NCBI GenBank assembly: GCA_020725805.1
Contig: DYEF01000093.1
Location: forward strand, 1 to 35,273
From: Bdellovibrio sp.
Lineage (GTDB): Bacteria > Myxococcota > SpSt-1050
Direction: 5' to 3'
Length of the DNA stretch: 35,273 nt
Shown here: piece by piece, positions 7,762 through 32,318 of the stretch
Layout of the letters: every line of letters starts with the position of its first letter
Position numbering within the stretch: position 1 is the stretch's first letter
The notes under the pieces: generated by a model
Database searches by the model: none
The model's input: the letters and a program-made list of their open reading frames with translations, nothing else
What the model was told of the DNA's origin: nothing
Position numbers and translations under genes: made by a program

Positions 7762-10700
7762 TGTTATTATCTCCCGAAATAGTCACCTTTCTGTTCTGAC
7801 CGGAAAATTCCACACCATCCCATCTCTCTATTGCCCCGAAATCGATCAGATACTTATATTCAATCTGGGTTTGGTTACAGATATAGGTCTCAAAATATGA
7901 ACTGTTTTCACTTGTCTTTACCATCCTAACCCTGTTAGGAACCCAGTTTCCGACCTGAGCAATATCACCGGTGATAAAGGCTGACTTACCTCCCGATATC
8001 TCAGAAGATTTACTCTGTGTGTTGAGATAAAATTTAACCCTTACCGGAGCAAGACTGCTCTTTTCGGAAATTTCAAAAAACCTTACCTCATACTGTTTGA
8101 GCGGTCCTGTAAAGAAGTAATTGTAATTCTCTTCTACCTCCAAATTCTCATATCCAAGAACAGACCTGAGCTGAAGAACCCCGCAGCTGTTTTCCCTGAT
8201 AATACCTATATTCATACTTACCGTATCTACATAGGTATCCTTCATATTGACAACACCCAGAACTCTTTTCTCCCCTGATTTTACCGCAAATGTGTATACA
8301 TAATCCATCCGGGAATTCGGAATACTGTAAAACTCGGAACCTGATGAAAGTTTTATTTCACTGCGCAGTTTATACATAGCCCTGTAGAAGTTATAGAGCT
8401 GATTATTCTCACTGTAGTTCTGCCACGGCACAAATCCCCTGTATTCAGTAATACCAAGTTCTTCTCCATACAATATCTGAGGAGAATTCGGGAACATAAA
8501 CATTACGGATGCTGCAGATATCTGTTTTGAAATCCCTTTATCATTATATCCTCCGTATTCATTAAGGGCTGTACTCTTATGCGGGATATCGTGGTTTTGT
8601 ATAAAGAATGAATGAGTCACACCTCTGGAAAACTTCTTTCTCAGATCGGACCTGAGTCCGTCTATAGAATCAGGTTTGTTGTTACCGTTTATAACCGAAT
8701 TGATCGTCCAGTAATAGGGGAAGGTAAAAGCGGCATCGAACTCTCCCCTGTAGTAGTCCTTTATCCCGTAACCCTGATTATTATTGTCAAAATCCCTGAA
8801 TACCTCTGCTATTAGGACTGTATCGGGGTTGAGTGATTTCACATATCTCCTCAGATTCATCCAGACACTGTGCGAAGGTCCTGTTACGTGGTCGATCCTG
8901 AATCCGTCAACGCCGTCCGAAAAATCTCCGTCACCGTTCGGGTCCATCCAGAATTTCAGCATATCATAGACATACCTTCTAAGAACCGGGTTCGAATAGT
9001 TGATATCGGGAATCTCTGCCCAGCCTGTCTCGAGTGTAAGTCTCGAGCCGCCCATCTCCCTTCCGTAACCATATTTGTCATAGAGATTGCTGCTGCTGTT
9101 CTCGAACCAGATATAAAAATCCCTGAAATAAGGGTTCATATTCAGTGCCTGAATGAAGAACGGGTGCCTTCGGGAGGTATGATTTATAACCATATCGAGA
9201 ACAACCTTTATACCTTGCCGGTGAGCCTCACCAATCAGGGCAAAGAGGGCGTCATTATCCCCGTAATCCGGTTCTATGGTATAATAATCGACTGTGTGAT
9301 AACCGTGGTCCTTATCGTTCGAACGGAAAACAGGCATAAGCCATATTGTATCCACACCAAGTTCCTTCAGATATGAAATCTTCTCTTTCAGACCTATCAG
9401 ATCCCCGATTCCGTCTCCGTTGCTATCCATAAATTTTCTTACAAATATTTCATATATGTTCGAATATCTGAACCAGTCTGACGAATGGGAAAAATCCTGT
9501 GCCCTTACTTCAGACCCTTTTTTGGTAACAAAAAATGTCTTTATATCGGAATTTGCAACCGTATCGTTTACAATCAGATAGAAGAAATATACCCCGTCCC
9601 TTGAGACCGAAAACTGATTGGACGAAACCTGAGAGAGATTAAACTTTTCCGGATTTCTGATATCTTCTATCCAGACAAAACTGAGATTCCCTGAATTCGC
9701 ACCCGCTGATTTTGACGCATCGATAAGAATACTGTTACCATCGACAAGTATTTCTGCGTTTACAACAGGTTTTAATCCCGACCCTGATTTGGAGATGACA
9801 TATACATCCGTCTCATCAGGACTACTCTCGCCGTCCTTATTCGAGACTCTGAGTGAGAATCTGTAATACCCCTCCTTCTGGGGGACAAAACTGACAAGCG
9901 ACCTGACCTTCTGGGGAACGGCATTCGGGTCGTTGTTGTAACCGGCAGGGTCAGTTGCATATTCATCGCTCAGCACAACGGATTCAGGTGCCGAAACCAC
10001 TTCCCACTTATACGTATCAATTCCTGTCTGATAAGGGTCTTCCGACAAAGTCCCGTCCAGTATTACCTTATTCCCTACTTCAGCAATCTGAGTATAACCT
10101 GCATTGGAAATGGGAACTTTTTTCATAGTCTTCACAATAAAATACACGGAAGGCGACACAAACCTGTTACACTCCATATCCCTTATAACCACAGAATACC
10201 AGTGAGGACCGTCATGAAGATTTACAACTGCCGAGATAACAGACTTATTCTCCGAAAATCCGGCCTTCTGAACATTTCCGTCGATAATAAAATATGTACC
10301 TGATTTGTCTATTTCTCTCCCGCCAAGAAAATATTCCGATTCAATTTTCACCTCCGACACGTTAAGTATCTCCCCGTCTGACGGACTCTTACTGACTATT
10401 TCGGGAGTACATCCGTCCTTTACAACAGCAACCGAATTCTTGAATACCGGTTCGATATTACTGTTGTCGGGGTCGTTTATCCACTGATTCTTATTCAGAA
10501 TAAATTTGTATTCATATTCACCAGAGCCAAGAATAACCGCAGCGGAAAATATTCCGTCACCCGCTATCTCGTCTCCGTTTACCCCGTCGTCATTCATAGA
10601 GATGCGGCTGTCTCCCCAGTTTGTAAACTGTGCGGCAAGTTCGACAGCCGAAACGGAGAATCCTGCTTTTGATGAATCATATTTGAAAAGTGTAGGTTTG

Positions 10701-11137
10701 ATTTCACATTTTTTATACACACACTCCTTAACAGGTTCTTCCTTCTTCTTATATTCAAAACCATTTTTCAGTATCGCTGACTTCCCGTCGGGATTCAGGA
10801 CCCTGACATCTACCTTTCCTTCCGGATGCGGAGGATTGATAACAACAAGGGCCGAACTGCTAAGAAAAGATTTTACCTGAGCCTCACTGTCTCCGAAAAA
10901 GACCTTTAGACTCTCCCTGAAATTCCTTCCGCTCAGAGTGACCTCGATACCTCCGTCTGTAAATCCGGCTTCAGGATTTGCCGAAAATATTTCGGGATAT
11001 TTCCCGTTATCTCCTGTATCGTTGACAACAATATCAATAATCTGAATCGTATCTCCGCCTGTATCCATACTCTGTTCCGACGGAGAAAAACAGGCAACTG
11101 TCATCAGCAGGGAAAGAAGGAAAATATATATTCTCAT
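7724..11137 (-). CDS. multidomain lipoprotein alpha-amylase (GH13 with TIG, Ig-like and CBM20 modules)
   Basis: This 1137-aa enzyme starts with a lipoprotein signal ending TVAC (Cys16). In order follow an IPT/TIG domain (about 48-130), an E-set/CBM48-like module (150-240), Ig-like and PKD-like modules (250-540), the GH13 barrel (555-960) and a C-terminal CBM20 starch-binding domain (1030-1120, VRVKFYLNTQ to AQVGNWVPN). All four GH13 regions are present: DMVINHTS, DGFRIDHVT (nucleophile Asp749), AEVF (acid Glu778) and QNHD (Asp850). It should cleave alpha-1,4-glucans at the cell surface. The frame also allows GTG at 11143, but ATG at 11137 has GAGG 5 bases upstream. The stop lies inside the next gene. 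Family is certain; the exact product profile is not. Confidence 0.93.
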   Translation of the reverse strand: MRIYIFLLSLLMTVACFSPSEQSMDTGGDTIQIIDIVVNDTGDNGKYPEIFSANPEAGFTDGGIEVTLSGRNFRESLKVFFGDSEAQVKSFLSSSALVVINPPHPEGKVDVRVLNPDGKSAILKNGFEYKKKEEPVKECVYKKCEIKPTLFKYDSSKAGFSVSAVELAAQFTNWGDSRISMNDDGVNGDEIAGDGIFSAAVILGSGEYEYKFILNKNQWINDPDNSNIEPVFKNSVAVVKDGCTPEIVSKSPSDGEILNVSEVKIESEYFLGGREIDKSGTYFIIDGNVQKAGFSENKSVISAVVNLHDGPHWYSVVIRDMECNRFVSPSVYFIVKTMKKVPISNAGYTQIAEVGNKVILDGTLSEDPYQTGIDTYKWEVVSAPESVVLSDEYATDPAGYNNDPNAVPQKVRSLVSFVPQKEGYYRFSLRVSNKDGESSPDETDVYVISKSGSGLKPVVNAEILVDGNSILIDASKSAGANSGNLSFVWIEDIRNPEKFNLSQVSSNQFSVSRDGVYFFYLIVNDTVANSDIKTFFVTKKGSEVRAQDFSHSSDWFRYSNIYEIFVRKFMDSNGDGIGDLIGLKEKISYLKELGVDTIWLMPVFRSNDKDHGYHTVDYYTIEPDYGDNDALFALIGEAHRQGIKVVLDMVINHTSRRHPFFIQALNMNPYFRDFYIWFENSSSNLYDKYGYGREMGGSRLTLETGWAEIPDINYSNPVLRRYVYDMLKFWMDPNGDGDFSDGVDGFRIDHVTGPSHSVWMNLRRYVKSLNPDTVLIAEVFRDFDNNNQGYGIKDYYRGEFDAAFTFPYYWTINSVINGNNKPDSIDGLRSDLRKKFSRGVTHSFFIQNHDIPHKSTALNEYGGYNDKGISKQISAASVMFMFPNSPQILYGEELGITEYRGFVPWQNYSENNQLYNFYRAMYKLRSEIKLSSGSEFYSIPNSRMDYVYTFAVKSGEKRVLGVVNMKDTYVDTVSMNIGIIRENSCGVLQLRSVLGYENLEVEENYNYFFTGPLKQYEVRFFEISEKSSLAPVRVKFYLNTQSKSSEISGGKSAFITGDIAQVGNWVPNRVRMVKTSENSSYFETYICNQTQIEYKYLIDFGAIERWDGVEFSGQNRKVTISGDNNNEMEISDIFGVR

Positions 11138-11160
11138 AATCACCTCAACACACCTAGTAA

Positions 11161-17179: not shown

Positions 17180-19051
17180 ATGCCTAAGGTCAGAATTCCG
17201 GGAATTATCATTTTCCTTTCAGCAGTTTTATTGCTTTCATATTGTTCATCATCAGATGATTCAGGAAGCAATCTTTCAGGAAAAGATGGTTCTACCGGTA
17301 ACGATGGTTCAACATCTCTGGTCTGCACCCCCAAGGAAAGGGCCGGATGCACAACTTATTTCGACTACAAGGTCTGTAATGACTCGGGAACAGGATATGA
17401 AACGAAATCCTGCGATACCGGACAGATATGCCAGAACGGTGAATGCAAAAATGTCACCTGCTATCCCGGAACGCTTAAATGCATCGACAACAAGACTCTT
17501 CAGAAATGCTCGAATGACGGAAGCAAATGGGAAAACTACCTCACCTGTGATAATACCAAAGGAGAGGTATGTACAGACAACAAATGTATGAATGCCTGTC
17601 AGGAGGCGACAAGTACCAAATCATATATTGGCTGTGAATACTGGGCGGTCCATTTAAGGAATGCACCTCAGGAACTTATGGGAGACCCGAGTGTTCAGGC
17701 ATCCGATACGGCCGTCTGGGGAGTTGCTGTAAGTAATACAAACACAAACCTGTACGCTCACGTAACAATTACCGAGGCAGCGACAGGCACGGTTATCGCT
17801 TCCAATACTATAGAGCCCAGAAAACTTCAGGTCTTTACATTCGACCCGAAGAAGGATAATCAGAAGTATAATCTGAAAGGTACCGAACTTGCCAACAATA
17901 AGCTTCTGAAAATATCTTCGGATGTACCGGTTGTAGTATATCAGTTCAATCCGATGAATAATACAGTCAAGGTCTATTCCAACGATGCATCCCTCCTTCT
18001 TCCGACGCACATTCTTACGGGCAATTACATAGTCGCATCCCGTCAGGAGATAGGTGTAAATCACCTGAACAACGGATACCTGACAATTATCGCCACATCT
18101 CCCGGCACAACGACAGTCGATATTACTCCTGCGGCAAACACCTCGGCCGGGACTAATGTCCCTGCGATGACAAAGGGTCAGAAGAAGACATTCACCCTCA
18201 ATCAGTATCAGGTACTGAATATCGAGACTGCATCACAGGGGAATGACCTGACAGGTACAATAATAAAATCCAACAATCCCATTGCGGTATTCGGAGGACA
18301 TATCTGTGAAAATATCCCGGATTCGAGCGGTTATTGTGACCATCTGGAAGAGCAGATGTTTCCTGTAGACACATGGGGAGACAAGTTCACCGCCGTTCAG
18401 TTTGCCCAGAGAGACTATCTGACAAACAAGAACGACCAGTGTATAGAACCGAAAAAAGGTGAATGGAATCCGAATTCCATTTACAGAATCATTGCCGGCA
18501 AGTCCGGTGTTACCGTAAATACAACACCACAGCAAACGGGTTTCCCGAAGACACTTAACCTCGGACAGTTTTATGAATTTCAGTCCAATCAGAACTTTGT
18601 CATCGAGGCCAATGGTCCGGTTATGGTCGTTCAGTATATGGCAGGTTCTACCTACCAGAACTCTGTATTCAGCAACTATGACTCCTGCAGTCATATAGGA
18701 GACCCTGCAATGGTTCTGCTCGTCCCTCAGGAGCAGTACAGAAAGGATTATATTTTCCTCGTCCCCGCAGATTATGCAACCAACTGGGTAAATATTGCAG
18801 CGCCCGTCAATACAACGGTTACACTTACACTTCAGGGGACGCAAAACAAGACAGTCATTCAACCGAGCCAGTTTACACAGATTCCCAATACACAATACGG
18901 CGTTTACAGATTCAGGGCTGTATCAGGTATATATGAACTCAACGCAAATAATCCGGTCTCAATAATTGTCTACGGATATCATCAGGATGTCTCGTTTGCA
19001 TATCCCGGAGGTCTGGACCTCAAGGTGATATACGATAATCCACAATTATAA
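17180..19051 (+). CDS. IgGFc-binding-like lipoprotein with Cys-rich N-terminal part
   Basis: This 623-aa protein has a signal ending LLSYC (Cys22, with Tyr at lipobox position -1), a Ser/Gly/Asp linker, and a Cys-rich segment at about residues 49-140 (GQICQNGECK, GEVCTDNKCMNAC type). The remaining 480 residues resemble the IgGFc-binding protein N-terminal family: VVVYQFNPMNN, SRQEIGVNHLNNGYLTIIAT, NPIAVFGGHICENIP, HLEEQMFPVDTWGDKF and FVIEANGPVMVVQYMAGS are typical of this fold in myxobacterial surface proteins. AGGAGGAG precedes the ATG by 3 to 5 bases. It probably mediates surface adhesion or glycan/protein binding; antibody binding is only the family name. It is monocistronic as seen. Confidence 0.85.
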   Translation: MPKVRIPGIIIFLSAVLLLSYCSSSDDSGSNLSGKDGSTGNDGSTSLVCTPKERAGCTTYFDYKVCNDSGTGYETKSCDTGQICQNGECKNVTCYPGTLKCIDNKTLQKCSNDGSKWENYLTCDNTKGEVCTDNKCMNACQEATSTKSYIGCEYWAVHLRNAPQELMGDPSVQASDTAVWGVAVSNTNTNLYAHVTITEAATGTVIASNTIEPRKLQVFTFDPKKDNQKYNLKGTELANNKLLKISSDVPVVVYQFNPMNNTVKVYSNDASLLLPTHILTGNYIVASRQEIGVNHLNNGYLTIIATSPGTTTVDITPAANTSAGTNVPAMTKGQKKTFTLNQYQVLNIETASQGNDLTGTIIKSNNPIAVFGGHICENIPDSSGYCDHLEEQMFPVDTWGDKFTAVQFAQRDYLTNKNDQCIEPKKGEWNPNSIYRIIAGKSGVTVNTTPQQTGFPKTLNLGQFYEFQSNQNFVIEANGPVMVVQYMAGSTYQNSVFSNYDSCSHIGDPAMVLLVPQEQYRKDYIFLVPADYATNWVNIAAPVNTTVTLTLQGTQNKTVIQPSQFTQIPNTQYGVYRFRAVSGIYELNANNPVSIIVYGYHQDVSFAYPGGLDLKVIYDNPQL

Positions 19052-19199: not shown

Positions 19200-20621
19200 A
19201 TGGCCAGAAAGACAGAGGAAATCATCAGGCTTCTCAAAAAGGAAGATATCCTGTCCGTTGACCTTAAATTTGTAGATATGAACGGAGAGTTCAGGAAGGT
19301 CACTATCTCGCGTGACGAATTCAACGAAGACCTCCTCAAATACGGCATAGGATTCGATGGTTCTTCTGTAACCGGATTCAGAAAGGTCAAGGCCGGCGAC
19401 CTCGTACTCATACCCGAGACAGATACAATGCACTTCGACCCCGCATCAGAGACCAAGGTACTTTCATTCATCTGCTCAATAAATGAGGCCGATACAAGGA
19501 AGCAGTTTGAGGATGACCCGAGATATATATGCAAGAAGGCCAACAAATATCTGAAGGATTCCGGGATAGCAGATGAGGCATACTTTGCACCTGAATACGA
19601 ATTCTATATTTTCAACAATGTATCCTATGACATTTCGAAAAATCACTCTTATTTTTCAGTTGAAAGCGAGGAAGGCTACTGGAATTCGGAATTCGGAGAC
19701 GGAAACTACATTCCGATACCATATCAGAGAGGTTATCACAAGGCCCTCCCGTCAGACAGGTATTTTCACATAAGAGACAAAATAATCAGGACAATGCACC
19801 AGATGGACATCAGATTCAAGTATCACCATCACGAAGTAGCCTCTCCGTCCCAGCACGAGATAGAAGTTCCTCCGACACCGCTCCTCAAGGCTGCCGACAA
19901 TACTGTATGGATAAAATACATTGTCAAGAACACCTGCAAAAAGGAGAATCTTCTCGCAACCTTTATGCCCAAACCGCTTCCGGAAGATTCCGGCACCGGG
20001 ATGCATATTCACATTCTTCTGAAAAAAGGAGGCAAAAATATCTTCTTCGGAAATGAATACGCCTCGCTGAGCAAAACAGCTCTCTACTTTATCGGCGGCA
20101 TTCTCTATCACGGACGTTCCCTTGCGGCATTTACGAATCCTTCTGTAAATTCGTATAAAAGGCTTGTACCGGGATTCGAGGCGCCTACAACACTCGTATT
20201 CTCCCTCGGAAACAGGTCTGCGGCCATCAGAATACCAAAGTATGCAACTACCGAAAAATCGGCGAGATTCGAATTCAGAACCCCCGATGCAACTGCCAAT
20301 CCCTACCTCGCCTTTTCTGCTGTCCTGATGGCAGGTATCGACGGAATAAAGAACAAAATCGACCCCATAAAAAGAGGCTTCGGACCCTTTGATAAGAATC
20401 TTTACGAACTTTCGGATGCTGAACTGAAAAAGATCAGTTCGATTCCCCATAACTTCGAAGAGGCACTTGCGGCATTGCAGCTGGACTATGAGTTTCTCCT
20501 CTCAAACGGTGTCTTTACCAAGAACTTCATCGATGCGTGGGTAAATACCAAATTCAAGGAGGCCAAGCAGTTCAGATATTCCATTGACCCGCTTGAGTAT
20601 AAGATATATTTTGACTGTTAA
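19200..20621 (+). CDS. glnA: glutamine synthetase, type I
   Basis: The 473-aa enzyme makes glutamine from glutamate, ammonia and ATP. The N-terminal beta-grasp domain contains GFDGSS (51-56), and the catalytic domain carries the metal and substrate residues at near E. coli numbering: Glu132 and Glu134 (PEYEF), Glu212, Glu220, His269 (GTGMH) and Glu358/Arg360. The signature stretch NPSVNSYKRLVPGFEAP (313-329) and NRSAAIRIP are intact. The segment FDKNLYEL places Tyr402 at the position adenylylated in GSI-beta enzymes, so regulation by adenylylation is possible. A GGAGG precedes the ATG. It stands alone between a surface lipoprotein and a convergent giant protein gene; no P-II or amt gene is adjacent. 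Confidence 0.96.
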   Translation: MARKTEEIIRLLKKEDILSVDLKFVDMNGEFRKVTISRDEFNEDLLKYGIGFDGSSVTGFRKVKAGDLVLIPETDTMHFDPASETKVLSFICSINEADTRKQFEDDPRYICKKANKYLKDSGIADEAYFAPEYEFYIFNNVSYDISKNHSYFSVESEEGYWNSEFGDGNYIPIPYQRGYHKALPSDRYFHIRDKIIRTMHQMDIRFKYHHHEVASPSQHEIEVPPTPLLKAADNTVWIKYIVKNTCKKENLLATFMPKPLPEDSGTGMHIHILLKKGGKNIFFGNEYASLSKTALYFIGGILYHGRSLAAFTNPSVNSYKRLVPGFEAPTTLVFSLGNRSAAIRIPKYATTEKSARFEFRTPDATANPYLAFSAVLMAGIDGIKNKIDPIKRGFGPFDKNLYELSDAELKKISSIPHNFEEALAALQLDYEFLLSNGVFTKNFIDAWVNTKFKEAKQFRYSIDPLEYKIYFDC

Positions 20622-20643
20622 TCAATATAGTTAAAAATCAGAA

Positions 20644-23600
20644 CTAATCGACAACCGAGCAGCTGCATCCGGATTCTTCGGCGCCACTATCGTCCTGACC
20701 TGATGTATTACCATCGGTAATATGAATCCCGTCCTTAATCTCTGATGAATCCCTGCCAGATGCATCCGCAACAGATATATCGCCGGCATCCGCAGTATCA
20801 TCATAGCTAGTATCTGAACCGGTATCTTTATAGCCGAAGCATTTCCCCATATAGCAGTATGTCTCGTCGGGGCAGACTACATTCTTGCAGTAATCAACAC
20901 ACTTCCCGTTTTCACATACTGTCCCGTCTTTGCATACCACACCGATACAGGGATTCTGAGGGATACAATAACCATTGATACAGTCATATCCCTTCTGACA
21001 TTCACCGCTCATACAGGGGTCGGCACAGTAACCGTCTATACACTTCTGGGAGACTTCGCACTCGATTTTTCTGCCATCACAGTTCAGATCACCGGTAGAG
21101 CAATCCTCATATGCTGCCGGGTTGATCTCCTTGTTATAATCATCACAATCTTCACCGCCGCACCTGTAATCCTTAAAACCGTCCTTATCCCTGTCGGGGC
21201 AACCGCACCTCTTCTCCCCTCCTTCTTCAATGACCACTTCAAACTCCTTACATACGACCAGTACCTTCTCTGCCTTACTTATATGTCCTCCGATATCGGT
21301 TGCAGAAGCCCTAATTGTATATTCACCGCCTTCGAGCCTCCTGCCCCCGAACATTGCATCGTATCTGATATTCTTTACAAGAGTCTGAACGGAAATAAAA
21401 CTTGGATTCGTATCAAACAGTACATTGCCGCTCTTGTCCAGAATCTGCATCTGATACTGCGTAATATAGGTCTTGTCGTAAAATGTGAGCAGAATATCTG
21501 TATAGTCATAGAGCCCGTCACCGTCCGGTGTAACCGGATTATTTGAAAGCTCGATTTTAACCTCAGGAGGTGTGATATCGATTATTTTCACACCGTCGCT
21601 TATCGTCTCAGGTCCTGTAATCTTAACACCCTTCTCGATCTTGTACGGCCTTACCAGAAAATAATAAATAAAGTCGAATACGAGCCTCAGGTCCTTTGTG
21701 ACAGCCCTGTTTTTGACTCCGTTATCAGTCCAGTAGGTTATATATGTCCCGTTCTGGGAAATAATGGCATATTCATATCCCGTTGCACCGTCCACCTTCT
21801 CCCAGTTTGCACCGAGCGTACTTGTATATTCCTGACAATCCACATCCTCATCCTTGTCGGACGGACATCTGTCAGGACCATTGTCGAAGGTGGCCGTAAA
21901 ATAACCGTCATTTTCATATACATAGGGAGTAGCCTTTAATTCGGCCCTGTCGATTGCATAAATATATCCGTCTCCTGTACTGATGAGTATCTCGACATAA
22001 TTATCCCCGTCGAGGTCACCTGCAATAATATTGCCGACCGGATATCTGAAATTCAGGACAAATACCAGATCAAGATTCACTGCATCCACGGCATAGAGAT
22101 ATCCGTCTTTGGAGCCCACAACAAATACAGCCCTGCCGCTCTTGTCTATGTCTCTTATTGCAATTGACGGAGTCAGGTCACTCAACACACATTTATCCTT
22201 TGCGGCATCATCCTCTTTTTCGTACAATTTTCCGCATCCAAGAATTCTGTCTTTCAGAAGTGTCCCGTCCGATACCTTGTAAAGATATATATGAGCCGAG
22301 TCCACTGCCGTCTGCATAAACATAAGACCATCTGCTGTCTCAACCATAGAACCGTACTTGCCTGCATACTCAGTCTTGACAGAAGATTCCCATATCTTCT
22401 GCAGGCTGAAATTATATGCAGAAGGTGATGAGTATATCGCACCCGTATGTCCACCGTGGTTTATCAGCAACCCGCCGAAAAATGAAATCACTCCTGCATA
22501 GACATTGGCACTGGTATTCTGCGTAACAAGTGAACCATTTACGGCATTGAGCACTCTGAGTTGCCGGTAAGGATTGATTACATAATCCTCTAATCCGTCT
22601 CCGTTACAATCGGCAACCGTCCTGTAACCCTGACCGTCGCCCTGATAGGCAAGCCCGTATTCTGATGCCCAGTATTTCTGGGCTGTCTGCGAAGTCCCGT
22701 CCCAGACTATTATTCCGTATTTTGCGAGATTATTGTAGGGGTCGGTATATACATAATAGATATCCGGAATATTATCCCCGTTTGCATTGCCGAAAATCAG
22801 GTCCCGGTAAAATCCGTCTGTCTCGGTCCTTGGTGCAATAATACTGCTGAAGATCTTCTGGAGGTTATAGTTGAAGACATTTACAACAAGATTATTCCCC
22901 TCGAATTCGCCATATATCATATCGAATTTTCCGTCGTTATTCATATCTCCGATTGTGGGTAGTCCGCCGCTCCGGCTCCAGAGTATCCGCGGAGGGTTTA
23001 CAAGGTCAGTCGTCATACCGTCCAGCACAGAGATTACACCGCTCGAACGTGTAGTAAATACTTCGGGCCTGCCGTCCTTTTCAAGGTCCGAAATAAGCAT
23101 GTCGGCAATATACCCGCCGCTCTTCAGGTCCGGTATACCATCATAATCCATATCGTTTACAGACCTGAACTGGCTGTCATAGACAAATATTGTCCCGTTA
23201 TTGAAATGACCAACCAGATATCTTTCTTTTCCGTAAATTACCGGTCTGTAGAAATTATAAGATGCATTTGCAATACCTTCGATAAGTCCGACCCTGAAAG
23301 CCTGAGCGTCACCTACATCATAAGCCTCGATATTGTTACCTGTACGCATAATTATTTCTTTGCTGCCGTCGTTGCCATAATCAAACACGAAAAGCCTGTC
23401 GGCATAATTAAGTGATGCACCGGCAGCATTATCATAATAAATTGCATAAGAGAGACCGGCGGGGAAAAGAACTTTGATTACCAACACATATTCATCATTA
23501 TTCTTTTCGAGTTCGTACAGTCCATATCTGCCGGAGGTATAATCATACAGAAAAATCTGACGTTTTCCGTTATTATAAATATCGGCACTCCCGTAATACC

Positions 23601-24759
23601 TGTAATCCTGCAGTTCCACCCTGCTGCTGTAACAACTTGTAAATCTGTCCCACTTGGTAACACCTGTACAGATATATGAAGCATCGAGAATGTATGTCTT
23701 CCATTTACCCGTATTCGAGTCATAAACCGAAGTAATAAACTCAGATTCACCGTTATTGTCGAAATCACCGAGCGGGTCAGGCATAAGTGCAACCGAATCC
23801 CTCTGGAAGGTGGATTCCGGCGGTGATATCTGCCATATTGGTGTCAGAAAACCGTCCATTACCTTTAATGCCGTTATTCTCCTGCTCCCTCTTGCATAAT
23901 TCGAACTTGAATACAGAAATATCTCTTCCGCACCGTCATTATCCACATCCTTCGTCAGTATACTGGGAGAGCCCCACGGGAATGCCCCGAGAAAACCGGA
24001 CGCATACTTTAATCTTCCGTCATCTGCAGAATATACATAGAGATACTGGTCACCCGGTGCAATCACCTCGTAAATACCATCTCCGTCGATATCTGCAATC
24101 TGATTATTATTGCCACAATAGTAATCTCTTGTCTGCGGTTCAAGTGTAAATAACTTCTGAACATTTTTGAATCCGTTTCTGAAAGAATAGGCTATTCCTG
24201 TGCCATAGACAGCCCTCGGCTCTCTTGTCGCAGAACCACATGCCCTGTCTGCTGCATATATGTCGTCATAACCATCTTTGTTGATATCCTGAATAATCAA
24301 TGCCCCTATCCAGTTGAAATCGGTCTCTGAATTAATCCACTCGACAGACCCGTCCATTGCAGCAAGTATCAATATCCTTCCCTGCGAGTTTACAACTACT
24401 ATATCCTTTCTGCCATCCATATCTATGTCTCCGATATCAATAAGACTCTGTGCTGCAATATACGGAGTATCCCATATCAGAATGTCATTATGGAGTTTTG
24501 AAAGAACCTTCCCGCCCGATATAAGAACGTACTCCAGAGACCCGTCATTGTTGATATCATCAACAAGCAGTTGTCTCGAAGAGAGCGAACCTCCTGCATA
24601 ATACTTCCATTTGACTGACGGGATATCTATCTCGGCACTGCCTGAGACCATCGCCGTGCGGTTTACATCAGAGCGGAACATATGCCAGTAAATGTCATTA
24701 TAGCCGAACAGAAAGAGTGTAAAAGCACAGATAGTTACAAGAATCTTATATCTTCCCAT
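20644..24759 (-). CDS. giant exported FG-GAP/VCBS protein with MopE-like Cys-rich C-terminus
   Basis: The 1371-aa protein starts with a signal peptide (MGRYKILVTICAFTLFLFG). About 14 FG-GAP-like units follow (for example DDINNDGSLEYVLI, DIGDIDMDGRKDIVVV, QIADIDGDGIYEVIAP, IGDMNNDGKFDMIYGE), whose Asp-rich loops normally bind Ca2+ and build a beta-propeller. Residues about 1080-1190 resemble a FlgD-type Ig-like domain (PPEVKIELSNNPVTPDGDG). The C-terminal 180 residues hold a MopE-like CPDRDKDG...GGEDCDDYNKEINPAA block, several Cys-rich loops, an Asp/Ser/Thr-rich linker and the end SGCSCSVVD. It follows the 918-aa gene by 11 bases and is likely cotranscribed. It is probably a surface-exposed or secreted adhesion or structural protein. 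Confidence 0.86.
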   Translation of the reverse strand: MGRYKILVTICAFTLFLFGYNDIYWHMFRSDVNRTAMVSGSAEIDIPSVKWKYYAGGSLSSRQLLVDDINNDGSLEYVLISGGKVLSKLHNDILIWDTPYIAAQSLIDIGDIDMDGRKDIVVVNSQGRILILAAMDGSVEWINSETDFNWIGALIIQDINKDGYDDIYAADRACGSATREPRAVYGTGIAYSFRNGFKNVQKLFTLEPQTRDYYCGNNNQIADIDGDGIYEVIAPGDQYLYVYSADDGRLKYASGFLGAFPWGSPSILTKDVDNDGAEEIFLYSSSNYARGSRRITALKVMDGFLTPIWQISPPESTFQRDSVALMPDPLGDFDNNGESEFITSVYDSNTGKWKTYILDASYICTGVTKWDRFTSCYSSRVELQDYRYYGSADIYNNGKRQIFLYDYTSGRYGLYELEKNNDEYVLVIKVLFPAGLSYAIYYDNAAGASLNYADRLFVFDYGNDGSKEIIMRTGNNIEAYDVGDAQAFRVGLIEGIANASYNFYRPVIYGKERYLVGHFNNGTIFVYDSQFRSVNDMDYDGIPDLKSGGYIADMLISDLEKDGRPEVFTTRSSGVISVLDGMTTDLVNPPRILWSRSGGLPTIGDMNNDGKFDMIYGEFEGNNLVVNVFNYNLQKIFSSIIAPRTETDGFYRDLIFGNANGDNIPDIYYVYTDPYNNLAKYGIIVWDGTSQTAQKYWASEYGLAYQGDGQGYRTVADCNGDGLEDYVINPYRQLRVLNAVNGSLVTQNTSANVYAGVISFFGGLLINHGGHTGAIYSSPSAYNFSLQKIWESSVKTEYAGKYGSMVETADGLMFMQTAVDSAHIYLYKVSDGTLLKDRILGCGKLYEKEDDAAKDKCVLSDLTPSIAIRDIDKSGRAVFVVGSKDGYLYAVDAVNLDLVFVLNFRYPVGNIIAGDLDGDNYVEILISTGDGYIYAIDRAELKATPYVYENDGYFTATFDNGPDRCPSDKDEDVDCQEYTSTLGANWEKVDGATGYEYAIISQNGTYITYWTDNGVKNRAVTKDLRLVFDFIYYFLVRPYKIEKGVKITGPETISDGVKIIDITPPEVKIELSNNPVTPDGDGLYDYTDILLTFYDKTYITQYQMQILDKSGNVLFDTNPSFISVQTLVKNIRYDAMFGGRRLEGGEYTIRASATDIGGHISKAEKVLVVCKEFEVVIEEGGEKRCGCPDRDKDGFKDYRCGGEDCDDYNKEINPAAYEDCSTGDLNCDGRKIECEVSQKCIDGYCADPCMSGECQKGYDCINGYCIPQNPCIGVVCKDGTVCENGKCVDYCKNVVCPDETYCYMGKCFGYKDTGSDTSYDDTADAGDISVADASGRDSSEIKDGIHITDGNTSGQDDSGAEESGCSCSVVD

Positions 24760-24770
24760 ATATCACCCCT

Positions 24771-27527
24771 TCAGTAAATACCAAGGATACGGTTATTCCC
24801 GGAGTCAACAACTATCATCGCCCCGCCCGAGGTAAAATAGATATCAGATGGGAAACAGAGACCTGTTGACGCCCTCTCTCCGTACTCTTCGGAGCAGGAG
24901 TTCTTCCCGATAAGCGTAATGGCTTCTCCCGTGCTTTCAATCTGCCTTATGATATGATTGTTGCGGTCTGCAACGAATAAAGTAACACTTTCATCAAAAT
25001 TGACCATCAGGGAAATCCCCGACGGCTGATTATAAAGGGCTTCATCCTTTGTACCGTCCTTGAAACCACCTTTTGTATTTGCAGGGTCACCCGAATATCT
25101 GACTACAGAACCATCGGGATTGATCTTTCTTATGAGGTGATTCCCCGTATCAGAGACATAGCATTCGAGTTTGGATTTATTGCAGACAATACCTTCGGGG
25201 GCATTGAATGTAGCAGAATTATAAGCCCCGTCTGCCCTGCCTGCGGTTCCGCACTTGCCGCTGTATACCGAAACAACCCCGTTTTCTATAACCTTTATAC
25301 AGTGATTCCCGCTATCCGCAAAGAGGAGCCTCTTGTCATCCAGAACAGTGATTCCGTCAGGCTTATTCAGGCGGGATGTATCCTTATCGCCGTTCACATT
25401 GCCCGCTGTTCCGCATTTCCCTGCAACTGTCTCGGTTTTATATGAACCTGAATCCTTGTCATACGATACCTTTCTGATACAATGATTAAACTTATCCGAA
25501 AAGTAGATATCCTCCCCGAACTTCGTCATTTTCGAAGGCAGATATAGACTGGATTCAAGAGAACCTGCCAGACCATCACCCGAAATATTGTATGTTTCAT
25601 AGGATGATATGAGTAATACGCGGTTTGAATATGTATTGGAGATATATAAATCCTTCGAGGCCTCATCGAAGAACAATCCTGAAGGATATGCTAAAGGCGT
25701 GGAGTAAGTGGCTCCCGGTTCCTGTGACTTTCCCCTGCCGGCCACAAATGTAAACGAACCGTTCGACAGATTAATCTTCCTTATCATCTGGCTCTTCGAC
25801 TCTGTTACAAATGCAGATGAATTCTTACCGAGCGTGATTCCTGTGGGTGATTTAAGGCCGGATATGAGTGTCTGAACATTCAATGTAGGAGAGACCTGCC
25901 TTATGCTTCCGTTGTAATCCACAACAAAGAGATATCCGTATTCGTCCAGTGCAACAGATACAATATCCGCATTGCTTATCTGAACATATGTGGAGACACC
26001 GCCCGTCTTCGAAATCAGTCTTATTCTGCTGTTCCCTCTGTCTGCCACATAGAGGTCACCGGCATCGGAAACTGCAAGCCCTGTGGGCATATTGAATCTT
26101 GCGGCCTTCGGGTCAGACGAATTCGTATTCCCGGATGTCCCGCATATACCCGCATATGTATCCGCAATATATTTCTGCTTGAAAGTATCATACTGCAAAC
26201 GTCTGATACAGTGATTGTATGTGTCTGCAACGAATATCACGCCATTCGAATCCGCAACTATACCCATAGGATAATAAAATGTTGCATTCTCTCCTTCTCC
26301 GTCATCAGCACCAATATTTCCGCTACCCGCAATAAGAGAAGAGGAGAAGGTCTGCAGGTCAACAGCCTTGATTTTGTTATTGAGAGTATCAGCAATTAGA
26401 AGCCTGTCCGTACTTTTATCAATTACCATTAGTGAGGGACCAGAAAAGCGGGAGACATCTTTATTCCCTGTAAGGTCTCCCCTGTAACTGTCACCGGAAA
26501 AAATCTCAGAGCTGTACGACCTGCTTACATCATCGTACTTTAAGACAAAAATCATATTTGCTATATAATCGCTCACAAATACATCCCCGCTCTTTTCATC
26601 GAACGCAATCCCAAAAGGCATAACAAAATATGTCTCTGTAAGTCCTTTCCCTGTTGCAAACGGTGTCTTCATATTCCCCGCCAGCACAACGGAACAGTCA
26701 GGTGCGTCCTCATCGGTAAATCCGTCACAGTTGTTGTCCTTCTTATCACATATCTCTACCTGAGGGTTCTTCTTTTCGGCATCACACTCTACCCCGCTGC
26801 CGTCTGCCTTACAGACATATTTCCCTTCAGACCGGCATTCCCCAAGTCCTATCGTGCATTTCTGATTGAGTTCTTCGAAATCCTCGTCAGTAAGCCCGTC
26901 ACAGTTGTTGTCCTTCCCGTCACATATCTCCTTCTGCGGTTCCTTCTCAATCGCGTTACATACAACCCCTTTCCCATCCGGTGCACATATATAGAGACCC
27001 GCTGTCTTACATTCACCCTTACCTACTTCACATTCCTTATTCAGGTCTGTGAAAATCTCATCTGTAGAACCATCACAGTTGTTGTCCTTCCCGTCGCATA
27101 TCTCATCACTCGGGAAGAGTAAAGTTGCATTGCATAATACACCGTCACCCTTTTCATTGCAGGTATACACTCCCTCGCTCTCGCACTGTCCCTTCCCGGT
27201 AACGCAAACCTTCCCGAGGTCTTCGAATGTCTCATCTGTCTTACCGTTGCAGTCATTATCCTTCCCGTCGCATATCTCGGGTGACGCCTTACCGGCAACC
27301 GCATCACATTTTACCTCGAGAGTCTTCTTGTCGCATATATACTTCCCCGTCCTTCTGCACTCACCTGTCCCGGCTTCACACTCCTTTCCTATCCTTTCAT
27401 CATTACAATCCGTATTGACGATGGCATCGGACTGCCCCGAATCAGCTGAGCCATTTTCATCCGAACATCCGGCAAAGAGGAGAAATATCATAACAGCAAA
27501 AACCGGTAATAAATTCTTCATATTCAC
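24771..27527 (-). CDS. lipoprotein with four MopE-like Cys repeats and an NHL propeller
   Basis: The 918-aa protein has a lipoprotein signal ending LLFAGC (Cys21). Residues 50-281 are four repeats of exactly 58 residues, each with GxGEC and CDGKDNNCDGxTDE motifs typical of MopE-like surface proteins. From about residue 295 to the end there are NHL-type propeller repeats (GIAFDEKSGDVFVSDYIANMI, GIVADSNGVIFVADTYNHCIRRL, GLAVSDAGDLYVADRGNSRIRLI and more), probably two propellers. Start: GTG at 27527 lies 7 bases after AAGGAGG, the best spacing; ATG at 27521 is an alternative. The 1371-aa FG-GAP gene follows directly. The domain layout suggests a cell-surface binding protein; no catalytic residues are visible. 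Confidence 0.88.
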   Translation of the reverse strand: MNMKNLLPVFAVMIFLLFAGCSDENGSADSGQSDAIVNTDCNDERIGKECEAGTGECRRTGKYICDKKTLEVKCDAVAGKASPEICDGKDNDCNGKTDETFEDLGKVCVTGKGQCESEGVYTCNEKGDGVLCNATLLFPSDEICDGKDNNCDGSTDEIFTDLNKECEVGKGECKTAGLYICAPDGKGVVCNAIEKEPQKEICDGKDNNCDGLTDEDFEELNQKCTIGLGECRSEGKYVCKADGSGVECDAEKKNPQVEICDKKDNNCDGFTDEDAPDCSVVLAGNMKTPFATGKGLTETYFVMPFGIAFDEKSGDVFVSDYIANMIFVLKYDDVSRSYSSEIFSGDSYRGDLTGNKDVSRFSGPSLMVIDKSTDRLLIADTLNNKIKAVDLQTFSSSLIAGSGNIGADDGEGENATFYYPMGIVADSNGVIFVADTYNHCIRRLQYDTFKQKYIADTYAGICGTSGNTNSSDPKAARFNMPTGLAVSDAGDLYVADRGNSRIRLISKTGGVSTYVQISNADIVSVALDEYGYLFVVDYNGSIRQVSPTLNVQTLISGLKSPTGITLGKNSSAFVTESKSQMIRKINLSNGSFTFVAGRGKSQEPGATYSTPLAYPSGLFFDEASKDLYISNTYSNRVLLISSYETYNISGDGLAGSLESSLYLPSKMTKFGEDIYFSDKFNHCIRKVSYDKDSGSYKTETVAGKCGTAGNVNGDKDTSRLNKPDGITVLDDKRLLFADSGNHCIKVIENGVVSVYSGKCGTAGRADGAYNSATFNAPEGIVCNKSKLECYVSDTGNHLIRKINPDGSVVRYSGDPANTKGGFKDGTKDEALYNQPSGISLMVNFDESVTLFVADRNNHIIRQIESTGEAITLIGKNSCSEEYGERASTGLCFPSDIYFTSGGAMIVVDSGNNRILGIY
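26685..27380 (-). repeat. four in-frame coding repeats, period 174 bp (58 aa)
   Basis: Within the 918-aa gene the repeat-opening cysteines fall at residues 50, 108, 166 and 224, exactly 58 apart. Each unit carries six conserved cysteines and one CDxKDNxCxGxTDE loop. The DNA copies are clearly related but diverged. Confidence 0.8.
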
Positions 27528-29806: not shown

Positions 29807-31074
29807 GTCTCTCTTATCTTTACGGCGTTGTAATGGCCGGATAATCCTTCTGTTTCAGCCAGTTTCATCGTGGCATCTCTGAGAAGATTGTATCCTCTCT
29901 CGTTTATCCTGAGTTGTGTTGCAATTTTTACAAAATCATACACCGATAATCCAGCCCTGTACTTTGCCACACCATTTGTGGGAAGTGTATGATTGACACC
30001 TGCGGTATAATCCCCGAATACCTCGGCCGAATATCTGCCAACGAACAATGAGCCGTAATTTACAAGTTTTGTGAGAACTTTTTCGGGATTTCTGACTATT
30101 ATTTCAAGATGCTCTGGTGCAGTTTCATTTGCTATCCTTATACATTCGCCGGTATTTCTGCACAGAACCACATATCCGTTTTTTTCAAGACTCTTTTTAA
30201 TAATCTCCCTGTTGGGATTATCCCTGACCTGTCTTTCAATCTCCCCAACAACCATCTTTGCAAGTGATTCTGAAGTAGTAAGCAGGATTGATGAGGCATT
30301 AATATCGTGTTCGGCCTGAGCTATCATATCTGATGCAAGAATTTCCGGCTCTGCACTCCCATCCGCAATTATCATAACCTCGGAGGGTCCCGCTATCATA
30401 TCTATTCCGACCTGTCCGAAGACCTCTCTTTTTGCAAGAGATACATATTTGTTTCCGGGACCTACAATCTTATTGACCGGCTTTATTGTCTCTGTACCGT
30501 AGGCCATTGCAGCAATAGCCTGTACACCGCCAACCCTGTAAATCTCCTTTATGCCGAGCAGATATGCCGTTTGCAGAATAACAGGATGAATATCTCCGTT
30601 ATATCTCGGAGGAGAAAAGACAGCTATCTCCCTGACACCTGCCACCTGAGCAGGAACGGCACACATAATAAGAGTGGAAACGAGAGGAAAATTCCCGGCC
30701 GGTACATATATGCCGACTCTTTCAATCGGTATTATTCTCTGTGAACATAAGACTCCTTTCGATGTACAGGCAGAGAAATCCCTCAGGCATCTGAGCTGGG
30801 AGAGAGAAAATTTCTCTATATTCTTCCTTGCAAGATTGACAGCATACCTCAGGTCATCATCAATTCTGCGGGCTAAAGACTTAATTACCGGACTCTCTAC
30901 CCTCAGCAGACCGGTATCGAGTCTTACACCGTCAAATTTACGGCAATATTCTGTAAGTGCTCTGTTGCCTCCCGTTTTTACGTCTTCAAGAATTCTTCTC
31001 ACCCTGCTGATATCGGATTTGTCAAAGGAGAATAAGGACTTTTTTGAAAATTTTCCGGACGGGATTATTCTCAT
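29803..31074 (-). CDS. hisD: histidinol dehydrogenase
   Basis: The 423-aa zinc enzyme carries out the last two steps of histidine synthesis, oxidising L-histidinol to L-histidine with two NAD+. Family regions are complete: GPGNKYVSLAKREVFGQVGIDMIAGPSE, the zinc-site motif MIAQAEHD, the catalytic Glu-His pair in APEHLEI, GDYTAGVNHTLPT and the C-terminal GHYNAVKI histidine. Length is normal. AGGAG precedes the ATG by 6 bases and the ATGA overlaps the stop of the hisA/I/E fusion, showing tight coupling. It is the last gene of the operon and ends against the convergent DUF362 gene. Confidence 0.97.
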   Translation of the reverse strand: MRIIPSGKFSKKSLFSFDKSDISRVRRILEDVKTGGNRALTEYCRKFDGVRLDTGLLRVESPVIKSLARRIDDDLRYAVNLARKNIEKFSLSQLRCLRDFSACTSKGVLCSQRIIPIERVGIYVPAGNFPLVSTLIMCAVPAQVAGVREIAVFSPPRYNGDIHPVILQTAYLLGIKEIYRVGGVQAIAAMAYGTETIKPVNKIVGPGNKYVSLAKREVFGQVGIDMIAGPSEVMIIADGSAEPEILASDMIAQAEHDINASSILLTTSESLAKMVVGEIERQVRDNPNREIIKKSLEKNGYVVLCRNTGECIRIANETAPEHLEIIVRNPEKVLTKLVNYGSLFVGRYSAEVFGDYTAGVNHTLPTNGVAKYRAGLSVYDFVKIATQLRINERGYNLLRDATMKLAETEGLSGHYNAVKIRET

Positions 31075-32318
31075 TTGAATCTCCTTTTTCTGAGTTCAGC
31101 AAATACCTCTTCAGGACTTATCCCCTCCTTTGCCATAAAGACTGTCAGAAAATATAAAAGGTCTGCACACTCCCAGACCTTATTATCCCTGTTATCCGAT
31201 TTGATAACCTCAAGTGCCTCTTCCATAATCTTAGCCCGTAATTCATTATCCGATAGCGAGGCGGTATAGGATTTGGGGTCTTTCTTCTTTATCCGGTCAT
31301 TTACAATTTCGTAGAGTTCATAGATATCATAGATTCTGTCACCGAAACAGGAGTAAGAACCGGTATGACAGGCATAATTCTTCTGAAAGACAGTCGAGAG
31401 GATGGTATCCCTGTCACAATCCGCCCTCAGTCTTATTACATCCTGATAATTGCCCGACTCCTCACCCTTCTGCCACAACCTCTTTCTCGACCGTGAATAA
31501 TAGTGCATTCTCTTCGTCTCGAATGTCTTTCTGAGTGACTCCTTATCCGAATATGCGAGCATCAGGACCCTGCCGGAATAATCCTGTGTAATGGTAGGAA
31601 TCAGGCCGTTATCAAATCTGAGCGATTCAATAAAGGCATCAGCAAGATTCACTTTTTTCGTATATAACGCCATACCAAGCTGGACATCTACTCCCGTTTC
31701 AGCAAGCACCCTGATTTCCTCAACCGAAGATACTCCGCCTGCAACAACAAGACGGTTATTTCTGATAGTTCCTTTAAGTTTTCTTACAAGCTCTATATCT
31801 ATTCCCTTCATCGTCCCTTCATTGTCAATATAAGTAAAGAGAAATTCAGAGCAGAACGGGGACAATTTCTCGGCTGTCTCAAAGAGTCCCATTCCGGTAT
31901 CGTGTGTCCAGCCCTTCGTAAAAATCTTCTCTTTGAAGGAATCTATTGCTATTATAATACGTTCCCTGCCGATATTTTTTACAGCATCTTCAAGGAAATT
32001 ATAATCGATATCGTCATTTTCGAAGATTCTTGAGGAGAATATTACCTTTCTGGCACCGCAGGAGAGTAATTCCTTCGCTTTTTTCAGGTCCCTGATACCC
32101 CCGCCAACCCTGCATTCACCGATTCTCAGGATTTTTCTGATACTCTCTGTATTCTCCCCTTTTGAGAGTGCAGCATTGAGGTCGATTACCGCGATCTCGG
32201 TCGAAAAATCGAAATCCCTTGCCAGTCCTTCAATATCATCTACTTCGAGAACCTTCTCTTTACCCTGTCTCAGCTGAACGGCTTTACCGTCCATCAGATC
32301 TATCGAAGAAATGACCAT
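31071..32318 (-). CDS. HisA-HisI-HisE trifunctional fusion protein
   Basis: A 415-aa protein joins three enzymes of histidine synthesis. Residues 1-232 are HisA (ProFAR isomerase): IDLMDGKAVQLRQG with Asp7, RVGGGIRD, IAIDSF with Asp126 and VAGGVSSVEEI. Residues 235-325 are HisI (phosphoribosyl-AMP cyclohydrolase): LMLAYSDKESL, MHYYSRSRKRLWQKGEESGN, the metal-site DCDRD (300-304), and CHTG plus Cys324. Residues 332-415 are HisE (phosphoribosyl-ATP pyrophosphatase): KIMEEALEVI and ECADLLYFLTV. HisE and HisI perform steps 2 and 3, HisA step 4. GAGG precedes the ATG, 8 bases after the hisF stop. HisIE fusions are common; adding HisA in front is unusual. No frameshift joins the parts; the linkers are only 3-8 residues. 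Confidence 0.95.
   Translation of the reverse strand: MVISSIDLMDGKAVQLRQGKEKVLEVDDIEGLARDFDFSTEIAVIDLNAALSKGENTESIRKILRIGECRVGGGIRDLKKAKELLSCGARKVIFSSRIFENDDIDYNFLEDAVKNIGRERIIIAIDSFKEKIFTKGWTHDTGMGLFETAEKLSPFCSEFLFTYIDNEGTMKGIDIELVRKLKGTIRNNRLVVAGGVSSVEEIRVLAETGVDVQLGMALYTKKVNLADAFIESLRFDNGLIPTITQDYSGRVLMLAYSDKESLRKTFETKRMHYYSRSRKRLWQKGEESGNYQDVIRLRADCDRDTILSTVFQKNYACHTGSYSCFGDRIYDIYELYEIVNDRIKKKDPKSYTASLSDNELRAKIMEEALEVIKSDNRDNKVWECADLLYFLTVFMAKEGISPEEVFAELRKRRFK

Follow-up and report, generated by a model that had tools for sequence, protein, structure and literature searches.

JDVT-CTERM and Synerg-CTERM sorting signals are tripartite, with a helix and a basic tail. Predicted myxosortases are reportedly the subject of a 2024 in silico study. 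PMC11980579 describes the signals of sortases, archaeosortases, rhombosortases and myxosortases as tripartite, with a helix. According to the same paper, cleavage of TraA by MrtX, and the need of this cleavage for the Cys pair, have been shown, lipidation of MYXO-CTERM proteins has been proposed and MYXO-CTERM is universal in Myxococcota. Our literature search covered titles and abstracts, with the 2024 study outside its scope, and returned no helix-free form of MYXO-CTERM.

Here, we describe an exported protein encoded by Bdellovibrio sp. (GenBank GCA_020725805.1; Myxococcota). The stretch of DNA analysed, hereafter the window, comprises 35,273 nucleotides (positions 1 to 35,273 of contig DYEF01000093.1).

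Results

An exported protein with a helix-free MYXO-CTERM-like end

The features of the locus are as follows.

20644..24759, minus strand: coding sequence of the tagged exported protein, 1371 amino acids, with FG-GAP-like repeats, a weak MopE-type motif, a Cys-rich region, a linker and the tag (open reading frame list)
24706..24759, minus strand: N-terminal signal peptide, MGRYKILVTICAFTLFLF..., with no lipobox Cys; boundary approximate (home-made signal-peptide rule)
20827..21220, minus strand: Cys-rich region ahead of the linker; boundaries set by eye (sequence)
21070..21150, minus strand: MopE-type putative metal-binding motif inside the Cys-rich region (PF11617, residues 1204-1230)
20671..20826, minus strand: linker of 52 residues, rich in Asp, Ser, Thr and Gly (sequence and composition of such linkers)
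20647..20670, minus strand: tag GCSCSVVD, with the stop codon directly after (sequence; profile E 0.0057 in the genome search)
20622..20643, no strand: 22-base gap up to the end of the convergent open reading frame 19200..20621 (plus strand) (open reading frame list)

The FG-GAP-like repeats correspond to PF13517 (70.2 bits), and the PF11617 match scores 21.7 bits, below the cut-off of 27. The reading frame ends ...DSGAEESGCSCSVVD, with GCSC encoded at 20659-20670 and SVVD at 20647-20658. An earlier note on this DNA had described a tail like the start of a MYXO-CTERM signal that then stops, with no helix or arginine cluster. The translated sequence confirms this: neither a transmembrane helix nor an Arg cluster is found past the motif, and the stop lies four residues beyond the second Cys. 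The 22-base spacing to the next gene, given in the same note, is also exact (20622-20643). Hence, there is no room at the locus for a lost helix. The home-made rule detected no lipobox Cys after the signal peptide, and the TIGR03901 model for MYXO-CTERM gave no match to the protein at E ≤ 10. Since the helix, the Arg cluster and the family-model match are all lacking, we did not file the tag as MYXO-CTERM. Elsewhere in the window, 31071-32318 (minus strand) lies in a histidine gene cluster and encodes, by reading only, a 415-residue fusion of HisA with HisI/HisE.

The tag recurs in both genomes of the genus

The earlier note called this end an orphan and proposed searching the genome for others. 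We ran that search and found many, so the label was wrong, and the outcome named in the note as a refutation did not occur. Briefly, a stop-anchored pattern (GCxC, four codons and a stop) occurs at 35 places in this bacterium's 3.29-Mb genome (G000), compared with 3 for a reversed-pattern control. We also derived a tail profile of 17 columns from 21 tails. The profile does not include the stop codon, and all six frames were searched with it. G000 yielded 44 matches at E ≤ 10, all of which were read; 42 are tagged C-termini. The two others lie 177 residues from the stop of their frame (C94:8997) and in a 73-residue frame (C30:10057). Two of the 42 tagged ends, on C105 and C114, lie close to contig ends in short frames of 51 and 30 residues. 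The other genome of the genus (G001) gave 18 matches. Each of the 17 that were read has the tag at its end; the remaining match is a 10-residue frame with an internal stop. Chance was rejected as the origin of the recurring tag, both by the pattern and control counts and by the position of the profile matches at C-termini.

Together, the two genomes provide 59 tails. The number of residues after the second Cys is four in 55 of these, three in one, five in two and six in one. Within the 55 four-residue tails, the core columns are G (54), C (55), S, G or A (41, 12 and 2) and C (55). The columns past GCxC are S (37), mostly L, I, F, V or Y, then I, L or V (23, 21 and 8) and finally E, D or F (25, 10 and 7). 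The typical form in G000 is thus G-C-[SGA]-C-x-x-[VIL]-x-stop behind an Asp/Ser/Thr-rich linker. Both Cys residues are present in 59 of 59 tails, which is partly a consequence of how tails were defined. Other residues are tolerated between and after the Cys pair, as in GCNCATVY (L321, G001) and GCGCTLLN (L320, G000). Because the profile missed at least one G001 tag (GCNCATVY), our tag counts are lower bounds.

Tagged proteins belong to many families

BLASTP places the 40 tagged frames of more than 100 amino acids in 27 sequence clusters, some perhaps linked only via common repeats. A Pfam scan of all 40 left 9 with no family at E ≤ 1e-5. Peptidases of families M4, M36, S8, M64, C1 (two), M10 and S15 are represented. 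Other enzymes include GH25, GH123, an amidase, a phosphodiester glycosidase and a heparinase/alginate-lyase protein. There are also two calcineurin-like phosphoesterases and a peptidyl-arginine deiminase. The remaining named families are of the VWA, FG-GAP, kelch, laminin-G, Lcl_C and propeller types. By a simple rule, 51 of the 59 tagged frames have a signal peptide; of the 8 in which the rule saw none, 4 are fragments or 5'-truncated. Around forty exported proteins thus share a MYXO-CTERM-like tag with no helix. Hence, the helix is probably not essential for surface placement.

The core of the tag is constrained

We compared 15 mutual best pairs of tagged proteins from G000 and G001. The four core positions are identical at 59 of 60 positions; one pair with a five-residue tail was compared at CSCS. 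All eight tail residues together are identical at 98 of 120. Identity is 282/600 (47%) in the 40-residue linker and 6170/8845 (70%) in the body. Both members of each pair were selected for carrying the tag, and these figures therefore describe tags that were kept, not tag loss. Judged from these alignments, the GCxC core is conserved and the linker is not.

Helix-bearing and helix-free forms across Myxococcota

Our comparison set held 39 genomes, of which only three (G000, G001 and a third genome, G002) represent the order. Classic MYXO-CTERM, defined as a TIGR03901 match at E ≤ 0.001 and over the cut-off, occurs in 30 of the 39 and in neither genome of this genus. Even at E ≤ 10, TIGR03901 gives nothing in G000. 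It gives a single match in G001 (E 1.31, profile positions 21-33, in a 105-amino-acid frame), judged to be chance since the C-terminus of that frame, as read, has no such tag. The search at E ≤ 10 brings one further genome, G037, over the cut-off.

In G002, the fixed four-residue pattern is found 8 times, against 29 for its control; the longer tails of this genome are visible only by the profile. There were 31 profile matches. Twenty-five are helix-free tails, with 3 to 22 residues past the second Cys and a mode of 5 (C100:2291 is a 96-residue frame). Two have a helix and basic residues, and four are short chance frames. Searches with TIGR03901 and with the protein family described below added two more helix-bearing proteins, so that four were read in total. 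By the tails read, G002 is a transitional genome in which both forms of the tag are present. One helix-bearing tag, GCGCSTVG, is internal (G002:C71:1491-1523, L303): it lies 285 residues ahead of the end of a 2437-residue open frame. It resembles the internal MYXO-CTERM of MXAN_5598 described in PMC11980579.

The third residue after the second Cys (+3) is V, I or L in 4/4 helix-bearing and 23/25 helix-free tails of G002, and in 55/59 tails of the genus. An aliphatic +3 residue is found in 82 of 88 tails from the order and 2 of 11 from other families, a biased comparison: the order's tails were mostly collected by a profile favouring an aliphatic residue there, and the 11 others are incidental readings.

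Across the 36 genomes outside the order, the profile gave 14 matches at E ≤ 0.3 (0 to 3 per genome), and all were read. Four are classic helix-bearing tails (G008, G010, G020 and G030). The other ten, in frames of 35-157 residues, were taken as chance; the one from G028 (64 residues) ends GCSCSIARK. No long helix-free tagged protein is among these 14 matches. Neither G003 nor G012 gave a profile match at E ≤ 10.

Helix-bearing tails with a single Cys (GGCAA, GGCSS and GGCGTA types, each with a hydrophobic stretch and a basic end) occur in G037 (L340, L344, L347, L351, L355, L361 and L363), G012 (L336 and L343) and G035 (L341). These three genomes encode a myxosortase core over the cut-off and have no TIGR03901 match at E ≤ 0.001. 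Four of the G037 single-Cys matches barely exceed the TIGR03901 cut-off and the remainder fall short. Hence, TIGR03901 may under-call the single-Cys subtype.

The two forms interchange within one protein family

We examined a family that includes a G000 protein encoded on C78. Members in G000 end GCSCSLID, GCGCTLLN and GCSCNLLF, and those in G001 end GCSCSLID and GCNCATVY. In G002, helix-free members end GCSCMVVGP, GCSCSAVGF and GCSCSVLSLRGIR, and a helix-bearing member ends GCACSALGAS-helix-KKRSGVK. The orthologue of the C78 protein in G005, a genome from another family of the phylum, shares 59% identity over residues 19-428. It ends GCGCGSVGGPAG-helix-RRRR (GCGCGSVG), a classic MYXO-CTERM. 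The family search returned 26 rows, and 22 loci were read (all but L329, L332, L333 and L334). Eight are helix-free, all from the order, and nine have a Cys, a hydrophobic stretch and a basic end. Three, two from G006 and one from G004, lack a Cys tag, and two more are cut by the locus end. At the level of sequence, then, the tag recurs on many unrelated families, and orthologues and paralogues carry either this or the helix-bearing form.

A myxosortase-core protease is retained

The earlier note proposed looking for a co-occurring processing enzyme, and G000 does encode one myxosortase-core protease (Mrt). PF02517 (Rce1-like, CPBP) proteins number one each in G000 and G001, and at least two in 32 of the 39 genomes. 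Against the Mrt_core model (NF040914, cut-off 100), the G000 protein scores 117.9-119.3 bits and the G001 protein 109.6-110.7. The cut-offs of the MrtX, MrtC, MrtP, MrtS and MrtZ models are all missed by both; for G000, the scores are 160 against 250 (MrtP), 135.7 against 195 (MrtC) and 83.3 against 180 (MrtX). With the model for MrtJ, the JDVT-CTERM enzyme (NF033192, cut-off 75), the G000 protein scores 78.7 and its G001 orthologue 72.7. For both, the MrtP and MrtC models give much higher scores, yet under those cut-offs. The protein has the catalytic-type motifs PEEIFFRG, FALGH and HWISN. A search of solved structures with it returned nothing at E ≤ 0.1.

In all three genomes of the order, mrt is divergent from the same two genes, which encode a secreted protein and a TPR protein. 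Between G000 and G002, identity is 33% for the secreted protein, 29% for the TPR protein and 38% over 164 positions for Mrt. A wider contig scan with the Mrt pair found four loci, three of them distant. Adjoining mrt is an apparent IspD-IspF fusion (L306:8556-9713, plus strand, in G000; L186:5513-6667 in G001), identified by reading only. In a tree, the Mrt proteins of G000, G001 and G002 group with weak support (42/61); the tree is compatible with one origin of the proteases in this order or with several. The branch leading to the G000/G001 pair measures 1.72 changes per column, compared with a median end branch of 0.41 (L306:9717-10370). It looks as if the protease altered when its substrates lost the helix. 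However, this may be chance, since G006 and G031 are also long-branched.

The presence of Mrt alone proves little, because the core exceeds its cut-off in 33 of 39 Myxococcota genomes regardless of tag type. What counts is that Mrt persists as the sole detected CPBP protein where the helix-bearing tag is undetected. Hidden classic MYXO-CTERM clients were considered as the reason for the kept protease in G000 and rejected, as none appears at E ≤ 10. G000 also carries a type II secretion cluster on contig C16, in which GspD, E, F and G exceed their cut-offs.

Linkers and lipoboxes

Asp, Glu, Ser, Thr and Gly together make up 56% of the 40 residues preceding the tag (33 proteins). The value is 44% for the 40 residues past a lipobox Cys (17 proteins). 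Among untagged exported proteins, it is 32% for the C-terminal 40 residues (48 proteins) and 35% for residues 31-70 where no lipobox is present; the lipobox effect is modest. Several large exported proteins show one of two layouts: a lipobox at the N-terminus with Asp/Ser-rich sequence behind it, or the mirror image, such sequence leading into the C-terminal tag. Four large untagged lipobox proteins encoded in the window have stretches rich in Asp, Ser, Gly and Thr shortly past the lipid Cys: 17180-19051 (plus strand) and 24771-27527, 6211-7761 and 7724-11143 (minus strand).

We compared lipobox frequencies using the home-made signal-peptide rule and genes from the fetched stretches (window, G000 and some of G001). 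The comparison excluded eight tagged frames in which the rule saw no signal peptide and any untagged protein bearing an additional hydrophobic segment. Among exported proteins, a lipobox was called on 8 of the 47 with the tag and 26 of the 44 lacking it (p = 3.8e-5). A stricter rule, applied to the G000 stretches only, gave 4/33 and 17/48 (p = 0.02). A lipobox that is rarer on tagged proteins is as expected if the tag itself is an anchor. When read, about three of the 8 calls on tagged proteins look false and about five are convincing. Because of these five or so, two anchors, or no C-terminal anchor, must be allowed for some proteins.

Discussion

A probable helix-free descendant of MYXO-CTERM

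Of the two suggestions in the earlier note, a different C-terminal processing or lipidation signal or a helix-free version of the myxobacterial one, the second is better supported. The core motif and acidic linker are shared, and both forms sit side by side in G002. Orthologues bear one form or the other, and a myxosortase-core protease is kept. Our preferred reading is that the tag is a helix-free descendant of MYXO-CTERM that works as a CaaX-like box: the Cys would be lipidated after export, and the tail may be trimmed by the myxosortase. We give this a probability of about 0.65. Within it, descent from MYXO-CTERM is well supported, and lipidation of the Cys with trimming of the tail is what we infer to follow export.

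The proposed pathway is as follows. Client proteins would leave the cytoplasm by Sec. In the periplasm, lipidation of GCxC, probably at its first Cys and perhaps at both, would provide an inner-membrane anchor with no helix. The lipid, in place of the helix, would hold the precursor. According to PMC11980579, no lipid transferase is known for MYXO-CTERM. The myxosortase would then read the lipidated Cys and the aliphatic residue three past the second Cys, and trim the few residues behind, much as Rce1 does on a CaaX box. Next, a type II system would move the protein, still anchored, to the cell surface. The linker would be a tether beside the anchor, mirroring the Asp/Ser-rich stretch after the lipid Cys of several N-terminal lipoproteins. 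That the first Cys is the modified one is suggested by the GGCAA-type single-Cys tails in G037 and G012. As speculation, retention of both Cys residues in helix-free tails could mean that two lipids compensate for the helix. The most complete version of this scheme is an extracytoplasmic CaaX-like system in which dozens of proteins would be surface-anchored via one or both Cys residues of GCxC, lipidated on a soluble tail and trimmed by a myxosortase, the helix being dispensable and lost within one order. We advance it tentatively, at somewhat less than even odds.

Alternative explanations

The gene might instead encode approximately the end that a myxosortase would leave, so that the Cys is lipidated, the tail stays untrimmed and Mrt serves some other purpose or survives as a relic. 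Nothing apart from the helix obviously needs removal, and the spread of G002 tail lengths, from 3 to 22 residues, looks as if the end were indifferent. Against this, G000 and G001 each keep one CPBP protein with catalytic-type motifs, although no helix-bearing tag is detected in G000, and the tail is of four residues in 55/59 cases with an aliphatic +3 residue in 55/59, as expected of a site that is read. We consider this explanation unlikely, with perhaps one chance in five of being right.

Alternatively, there may be no lipid anchor. A CxC pair is able to form a disulfide or bind metal. The end could then be a disulfide-bonded, metal-binding or thiol-modified structure, or a recognition element for type II secretion, and the proteins would be released. 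The invariant Cys pair fits such chemistry, with the caveat that tail definition contributes to its invariance, and many clients are typical secreted hydrolases. Interchange with MYXO-CTERM among orthologues argues otherwise, as does the partial exclusion between tag and N-terminal lipobox. Moreover, single-Cys helix-bearing tails elsewhere in the phylum argue against paired-Cys chemistry as the core function. This possibility is weaker again, at near half the likelihood of the untrimmed end.

A signal of separate origin that merely looks like MYXO-CTERM would account for the silence of TIGR03901. Such convergence is most improbable given that the two forms in G002 share one core and one +3 preference, that they swap inside a single protein family and that mrt is syntenic. 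An artefact in which truncation, frameshift or stop-codon recoding hides a helix has a negligible chance of being correct and was ruled out: the same end occurs on 42 proteins, the window leaves a 22-base gap, the stops of the 59 tails are mixed (TAA 21, TGA 20, TAG 18) and a downstream hydrophobic stretch follows in frame in 1/59, with 0/59 and 3/59 in the other two frames.

Implications and comparison with known systems

If the CaaX-like reading is true, this class of sorting signal can do without the helix taken to define it. The helix-free form and the transitional genome tell apart two roles within the signal: GCxC-x-x-aliphatic, which is probably what is recognised, and a segment that does no more than keep the precursor membrane-bound. 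They also make two questions testable: whether lipidation precedes and suffices for anchoring, and what a myxosortase must see. Our data suggest that a helix-based annotation model misses a set of surface proteins in G000, and that the universality of MYXO-CTERM in Myxococcota, as worded in PMC11980579, needs qualification.

Among known systems, MYXO-CTERM/MrtX shares with the tag a GCxC core, a preceding linker, an N-terminal signal peptide, hydrolase and adhesin-like clients, a genome with a myxosortase-core protease and type II secretion, and the phylum. It differs in that the tag described here has no helix, Arg cluster or TIGR03901 match, meets a stop a few residues on and favours an aliphatic +3 residue. 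Other C-terminal signals served by intramembrane proteases are JDVT-CTERM/MrtJ, Synerg-CTERM/MrtS and GlyGly-CTERM/rhombosortase. Unlike our tag, GlyGly-CTERM and the general sorting-signal architecture are tripartite, with a helix and a basic tail, according to PMC11980579. N-terminal lipoproteins (Lgt/LspA) resemble the tag in placing a Cys beside an Asp/Ser-rich linker, with a proposed lipid anchor. However, the tag is at the opposite end, the window protein has no lipobox and no hydrophobic helix lies by the Cys. The eukaryotic and archaeal CaaX box, processed by Rce1, also has a Cys near the C-terminus, aliphatic residues behind it, few removable residues and a CPBP protease. Its Cys is fourth from the end, whereas the second Cys of the tag is fifth (in 55 of 59 tails) and the first is seventh. 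Finally, CaaX proteins are cytosolic and the tagged proteins are exported with signal peptides.
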